Below, piece by piece: positions 35,518 to 52,797 of a stretch of DNA of 53,315 nt. The notes below the pieces were generated by a model. That model saw only the letters and a list, made by a program, of their open reading frames with translations, was not told the origin of the DNA and did no database searches. Position 1 is the first letter of the stretch. Each line of letters opens with the position of its first letter. The translations under genes and the position numbers were made by a program. This stretch comes from Deltaproteobacteria bacterium. GTDB lineage: Archaea > Thermoplasmatota > Poseidoniia > Poseidoniales > Poseidoniaceae. The DNA is taken from contig JAOMAZ010000009.1 of NCBI GenBank assembly GCA_028344335.1, positions 1 through 53,315 of the forward strand, in the 5' to 3' direction.

Positions 35518-35781
35518 TCACTCTTCTTCAACAACTGCTGGACCTGCAACTGCAATCTGCTCACGAAAGTGGTTGATTACAAGTGGGTCCCTAGAGGTGT
35601 TTGGCTCAATTGCTTCACAAGAATCGATGTTGATTTGACGGCGATTAATACGATGCATACTGCCAAGTATCGAAAGAACACGGTGCGTTGCATCATCTGC
35701 ATCAGATGCTACAACGTCTTTACTGAAGTTCTGATTTTGGCGGCCGAATGGGGCGACGCCCTTTACTCTGAATGCCTGCAT
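35518..35781 (-). CDS. rpl18a: 50S ribosomal protein L18Ae (LX)
   Basis: MQAFRVKGVAPFGRQNQNFSKDVVASDADDATHRVLSILGSMHRINRRQINIDSCEAIEP; start at internal ATG 35781. Confidence 0.85.
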   Translation of the reverse strand: MQAFRVKGVAPFGRQNQNFSKDVVASDADDATHRVLSILGSMHRINRRQINIDSCEAIEPNTSRDPLVINHFREQIAVAGPAVVEEE

Positions 35782-35884
35782 GGAGCCGGCCACCTGCGAA
35801 TCCCCCTTAAACGCGCTGGCGCGACCAAAGTCAACCCCTGAAGGCGTTGGTTTGACGTGTAATGGGCTACTCCGTGCCTCTGTA

Positions 35885-38800
35885 ATGTTCCAACACAAGG
35901 CATTTCTGCTCACCGCGATGATGGTGATAATGCCCTTTGGGGGGGCTTTTTCAATACCAATAACTCCCGCTGAGGAATATGAAACAATTCTCTATTCTGA
36001 AGATGGATGGACTGCGGAATCATGGTCTTCAGTGAGAAATATTGGTTTTGAGCCATTGCGGCTTATTTCTCCGAATGAGTTACTCGTTTGGGGGAGTAAA
36101 GGGGAGAGGGTTGGTGATGCTGAATGGCATGCTGGTATTGATGTTATAGAACCGGATGGGGATGTTAGAATTATTCTAGAACCGCGTTTACCTCATTCAG
36201 CGGTTTCTAAGATTTTGTCTACTTTAAATTCATATGAAATAGAATACCAACCAAGTCCAAACTCCCCACTACCAATGCGGATACTAACTGAATGGTATGG
36301 GATTGAGCCAATCTTACAAACTCCAGGTATTCTATGGGTTGAGCCAATTCTGGAAACAAAGGCTAGAAATGAAGTAGCGGCGGGGATAATGACTGAAGGT
36401 TTACTCAACTCCACAACAGCATGGGAATTCGGGTTAAATGGTAGTAATGTGGTTATTGCCTATGCAGATACCGGCATCGATCGAGACCATGCTTGTTTTC
36501 GAAATCAAACATCATCTTTAGGAAATGCAACTGGCATTCCTAGTCAAGAACATAGAAAAATTATCTTACTTAACGAATCATTGGATGACTGGGATGATCC
36601 AAGTCATAGCGATGGAAGACATGGAACTCACATTGGAGGAACTTTAGCATGTTCTTTCGTTGATGGAACAAATGCAAGTGAGGGGACGTCCCTGACTTAT
36701 GCAGCGAAACTCGTCGTTCAAGATATCGTTAACGAATCTGGATGGATTCCACCTGATGTAGATTGGTTGTTGTGGGAAGGGCTTACACAAGGCGCCGTTA
36801 TTCACTCGGATTCGTGGGGGGATGATACTACTCAATATACTGCCAGAACTTATGATTTCGATGCGTGGTCATCTGAGGTTCCTTGGTCTGTCGCTTTTAT
36901 TGCCCCAGGAAATAATGGTGGACAAATGATGGAGCCTGCAAATGCTCGTTCTGTTGTTGCTGTTGGAGTTTCAACAAAATCAGAAGAGCCTGGGCTCTAC
37001 CAATGGTCTTCAGTTGGAGAAGCACATGATGGAAGAAGAGGAATCCATATCACAACCCCTGGGATGGGAATTGTTTCAGCCAAAGCAGATGGAATCCATG
37101 ACTCTATGAATAATGGAACAAGAAGCAGTACCGGCTCCTCAATGGCTACCCCTGCCGCAGCCTCATTTACCGTAATTCTTCAACAGTTAGTAGAAGAAGG
37201 ATATTTCTCAAACGGTACAGGGTTTACACCCAGCGGACCACTTCTTCGAGCACTACTTGCTTTAGCAGCAGAACCAATACCAAACCTAGTACACAACCAA
37301 GGTACAACAGGGTTGGGGCCGGATAATATACAGGGGTGGGGAAGAGCGAATCTCTCAAGGTTGGTTAATTTCAATAATCTCTCAAATAGTAGCGTCTGGA
37401 TTCATGATTCTTACCAGATGGAAAATTGGCAACAAAATGTAGAAGATAGAGTGTGGGCTGCTGAAATAGATGGAAAACCACTTGACAGGGTTATACAAAG
37501 TGGTTGGGATGGAAGTGGTGCTATGGGGCCATTCATAAAAACTGGAGAATCTTATTCTTGGAATCTATCCTTAACTGGGGAGCAAATAGATGTTCGACTT
37601 TCGTGGTCACCTAGGCCAGAGCCTGCACAAATTGATGATTTGCAATTGAAATTGGAATTCCCTGATGGAAAGGTTGCATATGGGGATGATTTTGACGCTT
37701 TTGGGAATACTAATCTACACCAAAACTCACAACAAATGATGCCTATCAATGAAACTACTGTTGGAATCAGATTGCCTGTTTCAATGATTGGAGGTTTTGA
37801 ATCAGTCAATCTTACGGTCGAGGGGCGCTTCGTCAACATTGGAAATCAATCAGATATGCTAGGGGTTGATGGTGATAAAATCGGTTTTTCATTGGCTGTT
37901 AAGGGCCTAAAAAATAATATTTTACCCGAAATTCCCGAAATAATTGATCCTTTTGATGGGATGGAAATTACCCCTTGGTCAGAACTGAATGAGTATTATT
38001 GGGGGTCTGGAAATTCTGTTGATGGCCCTTATCTTGCAAGTATACCTGAAAACTGGCAAAGTAGTTTTTCTGACTTTTCGTTTAATGGATGGATTCATTT
38101 ATCCAATTATTTTAATTTGAGTTTAGTAAATTTTTCTGCTTTTAGATTAAATATTGACGGAAACTACTCACCTGAAGGATTTCAATTTAGATTGCTGAAT
38201 GACTCAATGTGGGGGGATAATAATTCCTCAACGGTGTGGGTTGGGAATGTTTCTTGGGGAGATGGTGGTGAATATAATTCTTCTAATTATTCTATTGTTC
38301 CATTGTTTTGGGAGGTGGAAAGTTTCTATGGAAATCTTTCTATTGATGTTATTGTTGAAATAGAAAACAATAGTTATTGGTATGCCATTCCATTCAGTGT
38401 TAATGAAAGAGAAAGAGGTGATGTTTTATGGTTTAATATTTCAGATTCCGAACAACATTATTTTGCTGAAGGTACTTTTGGTGGGGGTTCAATAGAAATT
38501 AATGCAAGTAGTTCATCCGGGTATCATTTAATTGAATACGATCCAACAAAAATTTACTCATTTGAAATTGGCTATGCAAATATTGAAAATAATATTGTTT
38601 CAAGCGAAAGTTTGCCGTTTCCATTATTAGTCTGTAATTCAAATATTGATTATTCCCATCTTGAAAATGCGACATTAATCAATAATTCTTATTCTTTTAA
38701 TTATACTGGACACTTAAAAAATGTTAATTTTTCCTCGTGTTATAGTGGTTTAAATTTAAATGTCATTCTAAAAGAAATTAATCTCAATATACTACCTAAT

Positions 38801-39796
38801 GGGGTAAAAGAATGGTTTGGTGGAAATAAGTCGGGTTATGATGTTAATATTATAGAGGTTTGGCCGATTGAACACCGTTGGTTTAATGAAAGTGGAAATA
38901 TTGAAAATGCGCCTGAAGGCCTGACTTGTTATCTAGAATCTATTGATTCCTTTTCTGGTTTGGTGATATCTTCAACAGAGTGTGGGCCTGGAAATATTCA
39001 TGCTCACCCTATGATGTCAACTCCAAGATTAAATTTAACTTGGTTAGAAGATGAGGTTGAAGTATCTTATGTGGAAAATGGATATTCTAGTGATGAGTTC
39101 TCATATTCTTTATATGAATTAGAAGATGTAGGGGTTGAAGCTTTTGATTGGGATGGTAAAACATATCTAAAGTGGAGTAATCCATTAAATCTGGAGCGTT
39201 CCGCTTGGCCTGTAATACTAAGGTCTAGTTATGGAATTGAAGTGAAGTTTCTTGAACAGAGAGAGGAATTTGAACTTTCAAAATATTGTGGGGAAGATGT
39301 TTGGATCTGGTGGCGCAAAGAAATGGCTTATGTTGGTTCAGATCAAATTGACACATGGGTAATAGAAGTTGGTGAGCACGAAATGCCAGAATCTGGATTC
39401 TTACCTTACCAATTTAATTTCTCTGAAAAATGGGTGATTTTGGAAATATCAGAAACATACCTTGATTATGGAGATTTGAATATAAGTGTAAGGTTAGAAA
39501 ACCTAGATAATGGAATGGTGATTGTATTTAATTTCAAGTCTTATGGAAAATCTCCCTATCCAACAAATCAACAAACTTTGGAGAGTAATGTTCGTTGTCC
39601 TGCTGAAGAATTGGAGTTTTACAGCACTACTACTGCGATTAGTGTAGGTGGTATTTCTGCTATTCTTTTGGTTATTAGTATTGCAGTTTGGAAGCGACGT
39701 CGAATTAATGATCAAATTGGTGTTCCAGAACCATTTGTTGGAAGTAGTAATTTGGCTGGTATCGTTTCCCCTTCTGAAGTGGATTCATCCAATTAG
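35885..39796 (+). CDS. Large cell-surface subtilisin-like (S8) serine protease
   Basis: Signal peptide MFQHKAFLLTAMMVIMPFGGAFS; triad contexts VIAYADTGIDRDHA, GRHGTHIGGTLA, STGSSMATPAAASF; oxyanion-type APGNNGG; C-terminal TM ISVGGISAILLVISIAVWKRRR. Confidence 0.92.
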   Translation: MFQHKAFLLTAMMVIMPFGGAFSIPITPAEEYETILYSEDGWTAESWSSVRNIGFEPLRLISPNELLVWGSKGERVGDAEWHAGIDVIEPDGDVRIILEPRLPHSAVSKILSTLNSYEIEYQPSPNSPLPMRILTEWYGIEPILQTPGILWVEPILETKARNEVAAGIMTEGLLNSTTAWEFGLNGSNVVIAYADTGIDRDHACFRNQTSSLGNATGIPSQEHRKIILLNESLDDWDDPSHSDGRHGTHIGGTLACSFVDGTNASEGTSLTYAAKLVVQDIVNESGWIPPDVDWLLWEGLTQGAVIHSDSWGDDTTQYTARTYDFDAWSSEVPWSVAFIAPGNNGGQMMEPANARSVVAVGVSTKSEEPGLYQWSSVGEAHDGRRGIHITTPGMGIVSAKADGIHDSMNNGTRSSTGSSMATPAAASFTVILQQLVEEGYFSNGTGFTPSGPLLRALLALAAEPIPNLVHNQGTTGLGPDNIQGWGRANLSRLVNFNNLSNSSVWIHDSYQMENWQQNVEDRVWAAEIDGKPLDRVIQSGWDGSGAMGPFIKTGESYSWNLSLTGEQIDVRLSWSPRPEPAQIDDLQLKLEFPDGKVAYGDDFDAFGNTNLHQNSQQMMPINETTVGIRLPVSMIGGFESVNLTVEGRFVNIGNQSDMLGVDGDKIGFSLAVKGLKNNILPEIPEIIDPFDGMEITPWSELNEYYWGSGNSVDGPYLASIPENWQSSFSDFSFNGWIHLSNYFNLSLVNFSAFRLNIDGNYSPEGFQFRLLNDSMWGDNNSSTVWVGNVSWGDGGEYNSSNYSIVPLFWEVESFYGNLSIDVIVEIENNSYWYAIPFSVNERERGDVLWFNISDSEQHYFAEGTFGGGSIEINASSSSGYHLIEYDPTKIYSFEIGYANIENNIVSSESLPFPLLVCNSNIDYSHLENATLINNSYSFNYTGHLKNVNFSSCYSGLNLNVILKEINLNILPNGVKEWFGGNKSGYDVNIIEVWPIEHRWFNESGNIENAPEGLTCYLESIDSFSGLVISSTECGPGNIHAHPMMSTPRLNLTWLEDEVEVSYVENGYSSDEFSYSLYELEDVGVEAFDWDGKTYLKWSNPLNLERSAWPVILRSSYGIEVKFLEQREEFELSKYCGEDVWIWWRKEMAYVGSDQIDTWVIEVGEHEMPESGFLPYQFNFSEKWVILEISETYLDYGDLNISVRLENLDNGMVIVFNFKSYGKSPYPTNQQTLESNVRCPAEELEFYSTTTAISVGGISAILLVISIAVWKRRRINDQIGVPEPFVGSSNLAGIVSPSEVDSSN

Positions 39797-39863: not shown

Positions 39864-40868
39864 ATGGCAGAAAGACTCTACTTAGGAATAGACCTTGGGA
39901 CATACCAATCCACAATTGCTTCAAGTGATGGTAAAATGCACACTATTGAAACTGTGGTGGGAAAACCAAAGGACCCCGTTGCTCGAAATATGCTTGGAAG
40001 AGATGTATTATTTGGTTCAGATGCATTAGAGAAGAAATTAGCTTGTAATATCTACCGCCCAATGGCTGCTGGTGTTGCTCAAGATGATGAGGCAAACTTG
40101 GCTGCTGCAAAGGCGTTCGTCACTCACTTGATTGAGTCTGTTGACCCAGAAGAATTTGATGAAGTATACGGCGTCATTTGTAGTCCTTCACACATCACCT
40201 TCACTGACAAATCAAACCTTGTCGCAACCCTACGTGGTCAAGTCAATGCAATTATGGTAGTTAGCGAACCGTTTGCTACTGGTTTTGACCAAGACCAATA
40301 CATGGGTTCAATTGTTGTAGATATTGGTGCAGGAACAACTGATATTGCTCGCTTATACGGTACTTTCCCTAACGAAAGTGATGAAGATACAGTTCTTGAG
40401 GCTGGAGATTGGCTTGATGGAATACTTATGGATTTAGTCTCGAAGAAATATACGGGAGCACAGTTGACAAAAGACATGGTTCGATTGTGGAAAGAAAAAT
40501 ATTCCTATGTTGGTAGTGATGACCGTGAGTGTGAGGTAGAACTATCTGTTGAAGGAAAGAAGAATATTGTAGATGTTGGAGATATAATTCGCCAAGGTTG
40601 TGAACAACTTATTCCTCACGTTGTTAATGGTGTTAAAGCAATTATTGCAACTGCTGATCCTGAATACCAACCTCAATTCCGAAACAACATCATCTTAAGT
40701 GGTGGTGGATCAATGATTGAAGGTGTTGCTGATATGGTTGCTGACCAATTAGCAGACATTGGAGATGTTCGAGTTTGGTGTGTTGAAAATCCAATTGAGA
40801 GTGTTGCATCTGGTGCTTTAAAGCTCGCTAGTGCAATGCCAGATGACCAATATACTGCAATCAACTAA
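39864..40868 (+). CDS. Actin/MreB/MamK-like ATPase
   Basis: Phosphate-1 LGIDLGTYQSTIASSDG, phosphate-2 SIVVDIGAGTTDIARLYG, adenosine motif NNIILSGGGSMIEGVAD; 334 aa. Confidence 0.88.
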   Translation: MAERLYLGIDLGTYQSTIASSDGKMHTIETVVGKPKDPVARNMLGRDVLFGSDALEKKLACNIYRPMAAGVAQDDEANLAAAKAFVTHLIESVDPEEFDEVYGVICSPSHITFTDKSNLVATLRGQVNAIMVVSEPFATGFDQDQYMGSIVVDIGAGTTDIARLYGTFPNESDEDTVLEAGDWLDGILMDLVSKKYTGAQLTKDMVRLWKEKYSYVGSDDRECEVELSVEGKKNIVDVGDIIRQGCEQLIPHVVNGVKAIIATADPEYQPQFRNNIILSGGGSMIEGVADMVADQLADIGDVRVWCVENPIESVASGALKLASAMPDDQYTAIN

Positions 40869-40953
40869 GTGTTTTGGCAAGTCCTCGTAGGGGCCCATAA
40901 CTTGGGTCTTCAGTACCTTTCCAATGTGAAGGTTCAAGAATGGTCTGTCGCCG

Positions 40954-42240
40954 ATGCAGTGCGATATCATGTCTATTGAGGCCGCTGTACCTACCTCGGA
41001 TTCCACATCTGGGATGATTGACAACAGTGATCGAGCCGCTTTGGAGGGAATGTTGAAAGCATATCCTGTAGAGCAGTTGGTCGAAGAAGTTCTAATTGCC
41101 TGGGAAGAATTAACTGAGAGGAATAAAGATTTAGCTGATGCAAAACAAAAATTGAGAATTACAGAATTAGATTTGGCTGAACGTGAAGATGGAGTTGCTC
41201 CTGAATTGGCTAGATTGTCTGAAGCAGAAAAAAGTTTACAAGACCGAGATGCTCGTATTATTCACTTAGAGAGAATGCTTGAAGATGCTCGTTCAGAAAT
41301 TGAATCAACTGCTGCCTCAATGACTGCTGAAGAAAAGGCTGCTTTAGATGCTGAAAACTCTCAACTTAGAGATTTAACTACTGAACAAGGTGGAGTAATC
41401 ACAGAGATGGAAGAAAAAATGGATCAGTTGGTCGAAGCGCTCGATAAAGCTGCACAAGCTGGTTTAACTTCAATAACGGCTGATGAGGTTCGTGGATTGA
41501 AATCACAACTTGATGCAAGAGAGGAAGATTTGGCTGCTGAATCTGCGGCTCGTGAGGCTTTGGAAGAAGAACGGCAAAGACTGCGAGATATTGCTGATAG
41601 ACTTCGTGGCCTTTTAGATCAAAGAGATCGTCGCTTAGGTGAATTAGAAGAACAATTGGAACGCGTAATGACCGGGCCCCGTTCTGTGAGTGCTGAACAT
41701 GATTATTTAGTTGAGCAAATTGAAGAACTAAAGAGAAGGTTACTTGAAAGAAATAGAGAATATGAGGCTTTGAGAAGAAGAGAACGCCGCCTTCACAATG
41801 ATGTCTTCGAGCGAGATGAAAGAATGCAACAAATGCAACTTACCATCGCTGACATAGAAGCAGCTCTGCTTGACCGCACCTCTGAATTAAAAGAAGTAGA
41901 GAGCCAACGTGAAAGAGCGATGCTTGAATTAGATGCTTCTCGACGCAATGAAAGAACTCGGGAAGTGGTTGGTAGAGTATTCCAAGACTCTCTTGGATTA
42001 GTAAGGGACCATACAAAACGTGAGGATACTCGGGAAAGAATTGTAGAAGATGGCCCAAAAAAGAGAACCCTCTCAACACCTTCATTAGATGATATTCATA
42101 CTCTTGCTGGTGGTGAAGAAATAGAATTGGAGAAAAATACTGAAAGTTTAGTGCAGGGAGATCAACCTGAACAAAGGCCAAATGCACCAGGTGGTTCTGG
42201 AGACCCAATTATCTATGAAGATGAAGAATCAGAGTCTTGA
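40954..42240 (+). CDS. Long coiled-coil protein (~428 aa)
   Basis: Extended heptad-rich Glu/Arg/Leu/Ala sequence, e.g. EERQRLRDIADRLRGLLDQRDRRLGELEEQLERV and EQIEELKRRLLERNREYEALRRRERRLHNDVFERDERMQQMQ; no other domain seen. Confidence 0.85.
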   Translation: MQCDIMSIEAAVPTSDSTSGMIDNSDRAALEGMLKAYPVEQLVEEVLIAWEELTERNKDLADAKQKLRITELDLAEREDGVAPELARLSEAEKSLQDRDARIIHLERMLEDARSEIESTAASMTAEEKAALDAENSQLRDLTTEQGGVITEMEEKMDQLVEALDKAAQAGLTSITADEVRGLKSQLDAREEDLAAESAAREALEEERQRLRDIADRLRGLLDQRDRRLGELEEQLERVMTGPRSVSAEHDYLVEQIEELKRRLLERNREYEALRRRERRLHNDVFERDERMQQMQLTIADIEAALLDRTSELKEVESQRERAMLELDASRRNERTREVVGRVFQDSLGLVRDHTKREDTRERIVEDGPKKRTLSTPSLDDIHTLAGGEEIELEKNTESLVQGDQPEQRPNAPGGSGDPIIYEDEESES

Positions 42241-45420: not shown

Positions 45421-45726
45421 ATGGCTGCGAAGAGACCAACTAAAGGTAAAAAACCAGCTGCGGGTGGTAAAAAGAAGAGGCGACGTAAGAAAAAAATGCG
45501 TTTAACTTTAAAATCTCGTTCAATGAAAGAAAGTGATACTTATACAGATTCGGTTGGTTGGTCGACCACAGGTAGAGTTTTGGAAGATGCTGTTGCGGCA
45601 CCAGAATCAACCCAAATTAAGCACCAATGCAGTCTTTGCGGCTCAATTATGATGGTACCAAAACCAAAGCGGGCAAAGTATACCATCACCTGTCCTAACT
45701 GTGAACACAAAGACGATTTTTCATGA
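45421..45726 (+). CDS. Small zinc-ribbon protein with highly basic N-terminus
   Basis: MAAKRPTKGKKPAAGGKKKRRRKKKMRLTLK...HQCSLCGSIMMVPKPKRAKYTITCPNCEHKDDFS. Confidence 0.78.
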   Translation: MAAKRPTKGKKPAAGGKKKRRRKKKMRLTLKSRSMKESDTYTDSVGWSTTGRVLEDAVAAPESTQIKHQCSLCGSIMMVPKPKRAKYTITCPNCEHKDDFS

Positions 45727-46523
45727 TACGGGCAATTATTATTACCACCTTGATTTTATTCAGTGGGTTATCTGGGTGTCTTGAAGAAGTTGAAGATTCT
45801 GAAGGATTGTTGCTTGCAACCACAACTTCAATGAGAGATTCAGGATTACTTAATGAATTATTACCTGCTTTTGAAAAAGCAACGGGAATTCATGTTAATG
45901 TTGTAGCGGTTGGTACAGGTGCCGCATTAAATCTTGGAGAAAATGGCGATGCTGATGTATTAATCGTTCATTCACCTGAAAAAGAAATTGAATTTATTGA
46001 AGATGGATTTGGAATTTCTAGAAATACATTTGCTTGGAATAGATTTGTTTTAATTGGGCCGAACAAACTAGATGGATTTTCTAATGCTTCAGAAGCATTT
46101 GCTTCTTTGGAGAATGAATGTTTTGTTTCTCGAGGGGATAATTCTGGAACTCATATTAAAGAATTAGAAATTTGGAAAAACGCAGGTATTGAACCAGGTG
46201 AGGAATATTTGTCTATTGGGCAAGGAATGGCAAGCGCTTTAAATATGGCAGATGAATTACAATGTTGGACTTTGAGTGATAAAGGAACTTGGTTATTTCG
46301 TTCAAACAAATTAGATTTAGAAGCAACATATTGGGAAGATGATTTAACTTTAAACCCCTATAGTATAATTCAATTAAATGGAGAAAAAAGTGAGGAGAGT
46401 TTACGATTTAATGAATTTATTCTTTCTTTTGAAAGTCAACAAATAATCAACAATTATTCAATTAATGGGCAGACACTATTCAATGCAGGTCAACCTAACC
46501 AACTTCCATTAAGTAGCGATTGA
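45723..46523 (+). CDS. tupA: Tungstate ABC transporter substrate-binding lipoprotein (TupA-like)
   Basis: Lipobox LFSGLSGC; LLLATTTSMRDSGLLNELLPAFEKATGIHVNVVAVGTGAAL; SRGDNSGTHIKELEIWKNAGI. Confidence 0.9.
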   Translation: MIRAIIITTLILFSGLSGCLEEVEDSEGLLLATTTSMRDSGLLNELLPAFEKATGIHVNVVAVGTGAALNLGENGDADVLIVHSPEKEIEFIEDGFGISRNTFAWNRFVLIGPNKLDGFSNASEAFASLENECFVSRGDNSGTHIKELEIWKNAGIEPGEEYLSIGQGMASALNMADELQCWTLSDKGTWLFRSNKLDLEATYWEDDLTLNPYSIIQLNGEKSEESLRFNEFILSFESQQIINNYSINGQTLFNAGQPNQLPLSSD

Positions 46524-47797
46524 GGGACATCTTTCTCTGTTACAACTTTACCATCATCTAAGATAATTATTTGTTTTGAAAGGCGTTTTGCTTGTAGTGA
46601 ATTATGAGTTGCAAGAAAAACCATTGCACCCCGGTTAAGATGATCTTGAACTAACCTTTCCATCATTTCAACATTTATCCCATCAAGGCTAGCTGTAAAT
46701 TCATCAAGAAGGAGGATATCAGGTTGGGAAGCAAGAGCACGGACCAATGCCAATCTTTGTTTTTCCCCTCCAGAGAGAGTTTTTGGGGATTTATTTTTTA
46801 GATTTTCCAAATTAACTTGTTTTAACCACCACATTGCCTCTTCACCCCCAACTCCAGCATGGCATATGTTTTGAAGGACTGAACCATGAAGAATAACGGG
46901 TTTTTGATGAACCATCATTATTTTTCCTTCAACCTTAATAGAATTAGAATCTATTAAACCCGCAATGTGTCTTAATAATGATGATTTTCCACTTCCCGAA
47001 GCACCAAGAACGGCACTACATTTTTCTAGAGAAAGTAAATTAATTTTGTTTAAAATTAATTTATTATCTACCTCCCAGTTTAGATTTTTTACAACAACAT
47101 TAGCAGAATATTTGTTAAAAATAGGGGCTTTTTCAGAATAGTTTTTTGAGCTAAATTTTTCTATTTCTAATTTCAAAGCTAATCCTGAAGCAAATAAAGC
47201 GATGAGGAGTAAAAGGCCACCACTAATTAAAGCAGAATCCAAATTACCTTGTTGTGTATCGAGTACAATACTAGTTGTCATAACCCTTGTTTTTCCAGCG
47301 ATATTTCCTCCTATTATCATCACTGCACCAACTTCTGCAACCGCTCTTCCAAAACCAACCAAAACTGCACTAATAATCCCCACCCTTGCCTCTTGCAATC
47401 TACTCAACATCATGTTTTTTGTTCCCAATAAACCATGAGTTTCCAATACTTCTTTTGGGATTTTATCAAATGCAGACCACGAAAGCCCCCAAACTAATGG
47501 CAAAATCAAAATCATTTGAGCGATTATCATTCCTTCGATAGTAAATAATAATTCAAGATCTCCAAAAGGTCCTTTACGAGAAAGAGCAAGATAAACAACA
47601 ACACCTACAACTACAGGTGGTAGGCCATAGAGAGTTCGAATCATAATTTTCAACCAATTAAAAGATTTAGATTGATGTTTTGAACACCATGATGCTAAAG
47701 GTAAACCAATCAACAATGCAAGTATGGTTGCACTCCCCGAGACGGCCAATGAGGTGAGGATGACAGTCATCGAATATATTCTACAAGGGGTTGGCAT
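46490..47797 (-). CDS. Fused tungstate ABC permease-ATPase (TupB-TupC)
   Basis: N-terminal permease (GFGRAVAEVGAVMIIGGNIAGKTRVMTTSI) followed in-frame by ABC ATPase (Walker [12 protein letters not shown], signature LSGGEKQRLALVRALA, Walker B ILLLDEFTASLD). Confidence 0.92.
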   Translation of the reverse strand: MPTPCRIYSMTVILTSLAVSGSATILALLIGLPLASWCSKHQSKSFNWLKIMIRTLYGLPPVVVGVVVYLALSRKGPFGDLELLFTIEGMIIAQMILILPLVWGLSWSAFDKIPKEVLETHGLLGTKNMMLSRLQEARVGIISAVLVGFGRAVAEVGAVMIIGGNIAGKTRVMTTSIVLDTQQGNLDSALISGGLLLLIALFASGLALKLEIEKFSSKNYSEKAPIFNKYSANVVVKNLNWEVDNKLILNKINLLSLEKCSAVLGASGSGKSSLLRHIAGLIDSNSIKVEGKIMMVHQKPVILHGSVLQNICHAGVGGEEAMWWLKQVNLENLKNKSPKTLSGGEKQRLALVRALASQPDILLLDEFTASLDGINVEMMERLVQDHLNRGAMVFLATHNSLQAKRLSKQIIILDDGKVVTEKDVPQSLLNGSWLG

Positions 47798-49061: not shown

Positions 49062-49957
49062 GTTGGCAGACGATGAACCCAAAATATGTTGTTGAAGAGG
49101 AAATGGAACTCCTTGATGCAATAACCAAAATCCATCCAGAATCGAGTATGCGAAAACTTCGACATATGTTAACTCAAAAGCGAGTTACAGTCGATAATAT
49201 GATGAAACAACAAGCCCGTTTAGTGGTTAAAGAAGGGATGAGTATTGAAATTCATCCCAAACCACAACAAGAAATTAAGAAGATGCAAGGAATAATTCAT
49301 GAAGACCGCGAAATCATTGTAGTTTCAAAACCAGCTGGAGTTTTAACCGTAGCAACAGATAAAATGGAAAGAGATACCTTACATTCACGAGTTTTAAATC
49401 ATTTACAGAGAAGTGATGATGATGCTTGGGGATATATTGTTCATCGCTTAGATAAAGATACAAGCGGGATAATAATTTTTGCAAAATCAGAAGAAAGTAA
49501 AAAACACCTCCAAGACCAATTTTCAGAACGTAAAGTCATGCGGTGGTATACGGCTATTGTAGAAGGTGAGCCTGAGGAAGACGAAGGGTCTGCAATTCAT
49601 TGGTTAATAGAAGATAAAAATCTACGTGTTTGGGTTGTTGATGAGGGTGCAAAAGGCGCAAGAGAAGCAGTTACTCACTGGTTTGTACTTGAAAGAAATG
49701 GCTTAACTTCGAAAATTGAATTAGATATTGAAACCGGTCGGAGACACCAGATTAGGGTGCAGATGGCAGAACTCGGGCATCCGCTCGTTGGTGATCCTAA
49801 ACATGGAGCTGAATTCGATCCAGGCCGTCTATTACTTCATGCTACATCACTGGAATTTGTTCATCCAAATGGAAAAACCATGACATTAATGTCAGCAATT
49901 CCACCTGAATTTAATCGTGCTTCAAAACTCGAAGAAGAGGTGGTGAAAAATGACTAA
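49058..49957 (+). CDS. RluA-family pseudouridine synthase
   Basis: [84 protein letters not shown]. Confidence 0.93.
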
Positions 49958-52797
49958 TTCCACTGACCATGGTTGGATTAAAGTCAGGGGCGCAAGAACT
50001 CATAATTTGAGAAATGTTGATGTGGAACTTCCAAGGGGAAAGTTCGTAGTTATTTCTGGAGTTTCAGGCTCAGGAAAATCTAGTTTGGCCTTTGACACTC
50101 TCTATGCAGAAGGACAACGGCGTTATGTAGAGTCTCTTTCATCTTATGCGCGCCAATTTCTTGGACAGATGAAAAAAGCAGATTGCGACCAAATAGAAGG
50201 CCTATCCCCCCTCAATTTCTATTGATCAAAAACAAGGTTCTCACAATCCTCGTTCAACTGTAGCAACAGTTACTGAGATAATGGACTATCTACGTCTTTT
50301 ATGGGCGCGGATTGGTATTCCACATTGTCCAAGTTGCGGCAAAGAAGTAGCACGCCGAACAGTCCAAGAAATTGTTGATGATATGCTGTGGCGTTTTGAT
50401 GGTCAGGCTTGTAAAATTTGGGCTCCAGCAATCCGTAATAGGAAAGGAACACATGCAGATTTATTTTCACATTTAGTTGAACAGGGCTGGGTAAAAGGCA
50501 AGATTGACGGCCGGGAGGCCGATTTTGAAAACCCACCAGTACTTGAAAAAAACCTTCGGCACGATATTGATGTTCAAATGGATAGGATGAAAATAAATTC
50601 TTCAAATCGTCAAAGATTGACTGAAGCGGTAGAAGCAGCTCTCAAAGTTGGAGGGGGTGCAACAGCAATTGAACCTATAGATGAAGAAAGTAAAATACTT
50701 GCGTATAGTGAAGAATTTGCATGCCCTGTTCATGGTAGTTTTATGCCTGAAATGAGTCCACGAATTTTCTCTTTTAATAACCCACTTGGAGCATGCCCTG
50801 GGTGCCAAGGGCTTGGGGTTTCAAGGAGATTTAGTGAGGATTTACTAATCATCGAAGACTACTCTCTTTCAGAAGGCTGTATTCGCCCCTTTCGCCGCTC
50901 AATGTCACCAAGTTGGTATCGTAAAATGATGATTCAAGTCGCGGATTATTACGGAATTCCCACTGATATACCTTTTTCAGAATTGGATGATGATCAAAGA
51001 GATATCCAATTATATGGCTCCGGATCAACCATAATTGATTTTGAATTTAAGTCAGAAAAAGGCTCTGTTTATCGCATGCAACGGGCATGGGAAGGAGTAA
51101 TTCCAAGATTAACTAGAACATTTACAGAAACAAATTCTGAACGAACTAGGCACCGAATGATGGCCTTCATGACTGATGAAGATTGTCTAGAATGCAATGG
51201 AGAAAAACTCAACCCAGCAGCAAGAGGTGTTTTAGTAGCCGGTTGCGGACTCCCTAAATTATCTGCACTAACTGTTTCAGAAGCATTGGAACTAATTCAA
51301 GAATGGCGTAATATTCTTGACGAAAAATCACTTTTTATTGGCATAGATGTAATTAAAGAAATTGAAAGCCGCCTTTCATTCTTAAACGATGTAGGTCTAG
51401 ATTACCTCACTTTAGATAGACGAGCAAATACTTTGTCAGGTGGTGAAAGTCAGAGGATTAGATTGGCAACCCAAATTGGTACAAGATTAACCGGAGTCAT
51501 GTACGTGCTTGATGAACCTAGCATCGGCCTCCACCAAAGAGACAATGCGCGCCTCTTGGAAACATTACGAGAATTATCTGATTTAGGTAATACTTTGATA
51601 GTAGTTGAGCACGATGAAGAAACTTTACGACAAGCAGACTGGTTATGTGACCTCGGTCCAGGGGCTGGAATAGATGGGGGAAAAATTGTCGCTAATGGCT
51701 TACCAGAAGAAGTAATGGCCACTGAAGAAAGCATCACTGGCTCCTTTCTTTCAGGAAAAAGAAAAATCAAAATCCCCTCAATCCGGAAAGCCCCAGAAAA
51801 CGGCTCATTGAAGATAACCGGTGCTAAACACAACAACTTAGACAATATTGATGTAGAATTTCCCTTAGGTGTCATGACAGTTGTTTCTGGAGTATCAGGA
51901 AGTGGCAAATCAAGTTTGGTTTCAGGAATCCTAGCGCCCATTCTTTTGAGGGATTTGCATAAATCAGAAAAGAGCCCAGGAAAACATACAAAACTTTCAG
52001 GAATTGAAAACGTGGAAAAAGCAATTGTCATTAACCAATCACCAATTGGTAGAACCCCACGCTCAAATCCAGCAACATATACCAAATCTTTTGATGAAAT
52101 AAGGAGTATTTTTGCAACCACACCCCTTTCCAAAGAGCGAGGATATAAACCAGGACATTTTTCCTTCAATGTTCGAGGTGGACGTTGTGAATCATGTAAG
52201 GGAGCAGGTTCAATTAAATTAGAAATGAATTTTCTTCCAGATGTTTGGATGACCTGCGATATCTGTAAAGGAACAAGATATACAAGAGAAACTTTAGAAG
52301 TTGAGTGGAGAGGTAGAAACATCCATGATATTCTTGAAATGAATGTATCTCAAGCAGCTGAATTCTTCAAAAACCATCGCAAATTGTACCGAACCTTATC
52401 AACACTTGAAGATGTAGGATTAGGGTATATTCGCCTTGGTCAACCAGCAACCACACTTAGTGGAGGAGAAGCTCAAAGAGTGAAATTAGCAAGTGAATTA
52501 AAACGACCAGCCCACAAAAGAGCAGTCTATATTCTCGATGAGCCAACAACTGGTTTATCTCTTTCAGACGTAGAGCAATTAATCGAAGTATTATTGAGAT
52601 TAAGAGAAAAAGGGCATACTGTAATTGTCATAGAACACCACCTCGACGTCATAAAATCAGCAGACCACATCATTGACTTAGGGCCAGAAGGAGGAGCAGG
52701 AGGGGGAAAGGTTGTGGCAAAAGGAACCCCAGAACAAGTTGCAAAAGTCAAGTCAAGTTTTACAGGTCTTTACCTAAAAGACACCCTCAAAGTGTAG
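49950..52797 (+). CDS. uvrA: Excinuclease ABC subunit A, disrupted by a +1 frameshift in a C6 tract at 50206-50211
   Basis: N-part [61 protein letters not shown]...GLSP|; after the C6 the other frame reads [35 protein letters not shown]...; two LSGGE signatures, zinc-finger CxxC motifs. Confidence 0.95.

Follow-up and report, generated by a model that had tools for sequence, protein, structure and literature searches.

A MamK-like actin gene paired with a long coiled-coil gene in Poseidoniales: a candidate archaeal cytoskeletal module

The window analysed here, a stretch of 53,315 nucleotides taken as a whole, belongs to a genome of the Poseidoniales (marine group II) of 1.32 Mb and 57% completeness, whose closest named relatives are members of this order. 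Its plus strand carries both ORFs named in the original prediction, with coordinates and strand correctly given: one of 334 aa at 39864-40868, with the features of an actin, and one of 428 aa at 40954-42240. Comparison with orthologues puts the conserved start of the second gene at the ATG at 40969, so that the coiled-coil protein has 423 aa (40969-42240) and its gene begins 100 nt after the actin ORF. Both are real conserved genes, with mean column identities of 85% for the actin (25 orthologues) and 69% for the coiled-coil protein (26 orthologues). On the same strand, ending 67 nt 5' of the actin, is the gene of a membrane-anchored subtilase of 1338 aa (35780-39796; S8 family, Pfam PF00082), whose membership in the module is uncertain. 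A C-terminal TM-like stretch was present in 17 of the 17 S8 proteins examined; the cytoplasmic tail was considered as a conserved docking motif and rejected, being short and not conserved. On the 3' side of the pair the opposite strand encodes GGGP synthase (GGGPS), an FAD protein and a ferredoxin, followed by a beta-CASP nuclease.

The 334-aa protein, called A below, contains the three actin-fold signatures on which the original prediction rested, DLGTYQST (residues 10-17), VVDIGAGTTDIA (residues 151-162) and LSGGGSMIEG (residues 278-287). Among the NCBIfam models it scores highest with MamK (NF040964, 328 bits), followed by BeeR (NF053558, 204 bits), MreB (NF010539, 75 bits), Salactin (NF053533, 31 bits) and Hsp70-type models (about 20 bits), and none of the cut-offs of the first four (400, 530, 293 and 400, respectively) is met. 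In Pfam it matches MreB_Mbl with 74 bits, HSP70 with 16.6 and FtsA with 15.5, while sequence ranking against the PDB gives MamK (220 bits), BeeR (127 bits) and MreB (50 bits). The AF2 model, built from 32 sequences (pLDDT 90.9, pTM 0.88), has as its top Foldseek match the MamK filament subunit 5ljv (TM 0.93/0.96, rmsd 1.5 Å), then BeeR, then actins and MreB; the 50 listed matches consist of MamK, BeeR, actins and MreB/Mbl. MamK is the best-matching actin family in sequence and fold alike. The proposed likeness to filament formers over Hsp70 is upheld, the best structural matches being the filament-forming MamK and BeeR and not Hsp70, FtsA or PilM, and the profile and structure comparisons make A MamK-like specifically, rather than generically MreB-like.

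At the level of single residues, Glu143 and Asp161, the catalytic acids of MamK, correspond to Glu135 (40266-40268) and Asp153 (40320-40322) of A; both are invariant in an alignment of A, its paralogue B and the MamK of genome G080 (see below). The modelled fold starts at residue 4, without the disordered N-terminal extension of 30-50 aa of the BeeR type. At the position of MamK Ala278, A has Pro, Gln, Ser, Ala or Thr, and its filament contact would therefore not be identical to that of MamK. Judged by its sequence and predicted fold, A is a MamK-like actin and not MamK proper, since the curated cut-off of 400 is missed and there is no magnetosome context. In the four genomes searched MamI had no match (a search without a positive control) and MamQ gave only matches below cut-off, as it does in E. 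coli. A magnetosome function was rejected, with MamI unmatched and MamQ matches merely generic in those four genomes, and neighbours comprising the S8 protease, GGGPS and the beta-CASP nuclease.

Among 293 Thermoplasmatota genomes, strong matches to the MamK profile occur only in Poseidoniales and in one other genome, G080. Within the 194 Poseidoniales genomes, whose family names were assigned from the nearest named relatives and PMC6461757, the profile matches 97 of 97 Poseidoniaceae and 21 of 97 Thalassarchaeaceae, usually with two proteins per genome. The second of these, paralogue B, is 45% identical to A, forms its own clade in the tree and co-occurs with A. In the window's genome it is encoded at a separate site (L002:1477-2502, contig C11 of G000), with a KptA gene beside it and a prolyl-tRNA synthetase gene nearby; further copies are found among loci L084-L112. 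Full-length identity to MamK is 34.7% for A and 41.1% for B, and the NF040964 scores are 328 for A, 367 for B, 364 for the A of genus g17 and 435 for the G080 protein, the only one above 400. Of 13 B sequences, 11 carry Asp at the Ala278 position, one Glu and one Asn; the title of PDB entry 5ljw is 'MamK non-polymerising A278D mutant'. Because this Asp sits where A278D blocks MamK polymerisation, B, which is kept and lost together with A, would probably modulate, cap or co-polymerise with A filaments; this is an inference without polymerisation data, and compensating changes are possible. The actin tree included only one MamK and one BeeR, and its branching order of A versus B plus MamK (support 90/80, long branches) was not relied on. 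A mobile origin was rejected, as plasmid and phage collections give only distant MreB-like matches of <29% identity.

The partner protein is predicted by AF2 (pLDDT 80) to form long helices at residues 34-117, 120-163, 171-234 and 240-361, with breaks at about 118, 164-170 and 235-239, slight strand content near 364-393 and disordered ends (1-16 and 396-423). The pTM of this model is 0.24, and the relative placement of the helices is therefore meaningless. Heptad periodicity of hydrophobic residues is strong in 34-117 (1 of 2000 shuffles as high), 171-234 (0 of 2000) and 240-300 (4 of 2000), and is not above that of shuffles in 120-163 (199 of 2000) or 300-361 (277 of 2000). The description as 'nearly uninterrupted coiled coil' is broadly correct. 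The predicted acidic tail is there, and follows a PGG motif invariant in the 26 orthologues (residues 407-423 together, 42187-42237, disordered in the model). Mean column identity in blocks of 20 residues is 98% at 241-260 and 94% at 261-280, compared with 38-84% in the other blocks. The stretch around this peak, residues 237-285 (41677-41823, starting GPRSVSAEHDYLVEQIEELKRRLLERNREYEALRRRERRLHNDVF), is the most conserved of the protein and a candidate filament-binding region, as inferred without binding data.

We read 80 actin loci, one of which (L080) ends inside the actin. In all 79 readable loci the coiled-coil gene follows 3' of the actin, directly so in 75, and its conservation beside the actin, left to be established by the original prediction, extends over two families. 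In the other four (L066, L072, L074 and L076) further genes intervene; by eye, the inserts in L072, L074 and L076 include a cupredoxin-like secreted protein. A profile search found the full-length coiled-coil protein in 91 of 97 Poseidoniaceae. Among the 97 Thalassarchaeaceae, 17 have actin and full-length coiled coil, 4 MamK only, 1 coiled coil only and 75 neither, and completeness of the five genomes with only one of the two is 70-81%. A functional linkage, previously argued from adjacency alone, is now also supported by co-occurrence, still without interaction or polymerisation data.

A natural loss divides the partner into two modules. In seven genera without MamK, the site before GGGP synthase has only a homologue of 127-183 aa of the coiled-coil protein, and neither S8 nor MamK was found at this site in their MamK-less loci. 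The short homologues stop at about residue 160 of the long form (similarity is weak in g10), which coincides with the AF2 break between helices 120-163 and 171-234. Synteny and an alignment of 25 short homologues thereby define an N-terminal module, residues 1-163 (40969-41457), that exists without the actin. The remainder, residues 165-423 (41461-42237), is seen only in genomes of genera possessing actin, as established by an order-wide profile search and locus reading. Since the actin-less clade keeps only a homologue up to about residue 160, it is the C-terminal part, including the 94-98% identical block, that goes with the actin.

In a tree of GGGP synthase and the beta-CASP nuclease taken from these loci, all included genera without MamK fall into one derived clade (support 100/99); the Thalassarchaeaceae genera with MamK branch before it, and Poseidoniaceae lie outside. 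Genus g19 was left out of this tree, the second marker being missing. The simplest reading would be that actin, S8 and the C-terminal module of the coiled-coil protein were lost together, once. Genomes of the loss lineage measure 1.2-1.6 Mb, versus mostly 1.6-2.2 Mb. As the co-loss counts as a single event, in a lineage whose genomes shrank as well, its apparent specificity for the adaptor could be coincidental. For the same reason Fisher P values for co-occurrence exaggerate the support, and the sharp module boundary is a stronger argument for linkage than those statistics.

A comparable gene pair occurs in G080, the sole sampled genome of its order (bin contamination 7%). Its MamK (contig C140, L121:9628-10725, 435 bits) precedes a protein of 618 aa (L121:10923-12779) that is rich in charged helix and looks like a coiled coil. 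The contig is archaeal, its RNA polymerase B having its closest matches among archaeal enzymes, and in the actin tree the G080 MamK falls together with bacterial MamK (support 100/98, on long branches). No homology was found between the Poseidoniales and G080 partners (hhalign probability 0.4%). Together the two pairs mean that a MamK-type actin stands with a long helical partner at least two times in archaea.

The reading that we consider the most probable, with appreciable room left for others, is a two-part archaeal cytoskeletal module in which a MamK-like filament would be served by a dedicated coiled-coil adaptor, with B as a putative modulator and an undefined cargo; it draws on sequence, models and analogy. 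In such a module A, which retains the catalytic residues, would bind and hydrolyse ATP and polymerise in the fashion of MamK, the polymerisation being inferred from homology. Residues of about 165-361 of the partner, above all 237-285, may bind or decorate the filament, as inferred from co-loss and conservation, while the N-terminal module would attach to some cargo or anchor present even in the absence of actin. With its N-terminal module on that cargo or anchor and its C-terminal part on the filament, the coiled-coil protein would tether the structure to the filament, in analogy to MamJ or the Mad coiled-coil proteins that join magnetosomes to MamK. The cargo is not magnetosomes on present evidence, nor strictly the archaellum. 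A more ambitious and only tentative form of this proposal has a two-actin cytoskeleton, A polymerising and B carrying a polymerisation-blocking acidic residue, that positions an intracellular structure through the modular adaptor; it would be the first example in archaea of a MamK-type cytoskeleton that positions cargo.

It remains possible, if rather unlikely, that A forms filaments while the coiled coil is an SMC-like or chromosome- or division-associated rod, sharing the operon by chance or through co-regulation. The best library matches of the coiled-coil protein are indeed SMC coiled-coil stretches (33 of 729 bits at best), but no SMC ATPase head or any other domain was matched in Pfam or NCBIfam. 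That the N-terminal module persists without actin, and that the losses of actin and of the C-terminal part amount to one event, would suit a rod of independent function; on the other hand, adjacency has been kept across two families, and what vanishes along with the actin is exactly the C-terminal module, in which the most conserved block lies. The second archaeal MamK, in G080, also lies directly before a long but different coiled-coil-like gene, which speaks against this reading.

We give still less credence to an MreB-type cytoskeleton of cell shape or envelope that guides the assembly of a surface layer or secreted protease, with the membrane-anchored S8 as effector. The subtilase does accompany the actin: wherever the contig of a MamK-containing locus is long enough the gene is present upstream, in L068, L069 and L077 it shares 8 nt with the beginning of the actin ORF, and it is missing from the site where the actin is absent. 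However, the MreB score of A is only 75 bits against a cut-off of 293, the S8 cytoplasmic tail has neither length nor conservation, and no S8 gene is among the large ORFs in the 20 kb around the G080 MamK.

An archaellum-associated polar cytoskeleton, positioning the archaellum or a polar cap, appears very improbable. According to Rinke et al. (PMC6461757), flagella genes occur throughout the Poseidoniaceae and in half of the Thalassarchaeaceae genera; nearly all Poseidoniaceae possess both MamK-like actin and archaellin, and within Thalassarchaeaceae the association gives a Fisher P of 0.0014, without phylogenetic correction. Genera are nevertheless discordant both ways, g12 and g19 having archaellin without MamK and g15 and g20 MamK without detected archaellin, and a strict link is rejected for this reason. 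Least credible of all is a plasmid- or chromosome-segregating actin like ParM, Alp or Salactin, because, although the archaeal Salactin, studied for DNA segregation, was reported as nearest to MamK among actins (PMC10746226), the locus is syntenic across two families of Poseidoniales, the ParM, Alp7A and Salactin models of Pfam and NCBIfam all score far below cut-off for A, and no ParR-like DNA-binding partner was seen adjoining.

The module proposed here, a MamK-like actin with a coiled-coil adaptor, can be set against several known systems. To MamK (PDB 5jyg, 5ljv; NF040964) the Poseidoniales actins are related by full-length homology, nearest fold, retention of the E143/D161 pair and similar length; they differ in scoring below the curated cut-off, in lacking magnetosome gene context, in being archaeal, in forming clades A and B and in the residue equivalent to 278. 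In Desulfovibrio magneticus RS-1, two-hybrid assays link MamK with several partners within a coiled-coil network, Mad25 and Mad26 being extensive coiled coils (PMC12748827); MamK and Mad28 with Mad20, 23, 25 and 26 thus resemble our pair as MamK-type actins networked with extended coiled-coil proteins, whereas that network is bacterial and magnetosome-specific. MamJ, an adaptor of MamK (PMC10653835), is likewise the product of an actin-adjoining gene, links cargo and has an acidic segment, the adaptor role of the archaeal partner being inferred; MamJ, however, is encoded upstream of MamK and is acidic-repetitive, while the archaeal gene lies downstream and encodes a long, predicted helical protein.

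BeeR, a MamK relative in Verrucomicrobiota, outside magnetotactic bacteria (PMC11929497; PDB 8r2n), is second-closest to A in fold and sequence, but has the N-terminal extension that A lacks, and A remains far from its cut-off. Salactin of Haloarchaea/Methanotecta, placed nearest MamK by its authors (PMC10746226), is not of the same family as A and B, which reach 31 and 63 bits against its cut-off of 400. Crenactin (PMC5173319), also an archaeal actin, has its gene in a cluster with those of partners such as the SMC/Rad50-like arcadin-4 and the regulator arcadin-2; it is close to eukaryotic actin, and an arcadin homologue was not identified for the Poseidoniales actin. By score, neither Salactin nor BeeR, the reported MamK relatives, is the Poseidoniales family. 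No description of a MamK-like actin of Poseidoniales was found in the literature searched, which covered few subscription papers and is not proof of novelty.

Poseidoniales are the commonest archaea of the surface ocean, Poseidoniaceae are among the most abundant marine archaeal families, and MamK, which aligns the magnet organelles of magnetotactic bacteria, has been studied as a bacterial magnetosome protein. A MamK-like actin of filament type that comes with a dedicated partner, but with no magnetosome genes in evidence, suggests an archaeal cytoskeleton that has not been described. Its occurrence in all sampled Poseidoniaceae, together with a modular, co-lost partner, implies a core non-magnetic role for this type of filament. 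Uncultured marine group II archaea gain a testable cytoskeleton: a system of two or three proteins, expressible in E. coli, offers a route to the roles of MamK-type filaments outside magnetosomes, and the natural loss clade with its trimmed partner points to the candidate binding region.

Elsewhere in the window, uvrA (49950-50225 and 50281-52797) looks split by a frameshift near 50200-50230, with the Walker A-bearing N-terminal part in a separate frame, possibly through an assembly error. A single 435-aa protein (46490-47797, minus strand) fuses an ABC permease with an ATPase; its gene is convergent with that of a solute-binding protein (45723-46523, plus strand) of the tungstate/molybdate type by resemblance, with moeA adjoining.
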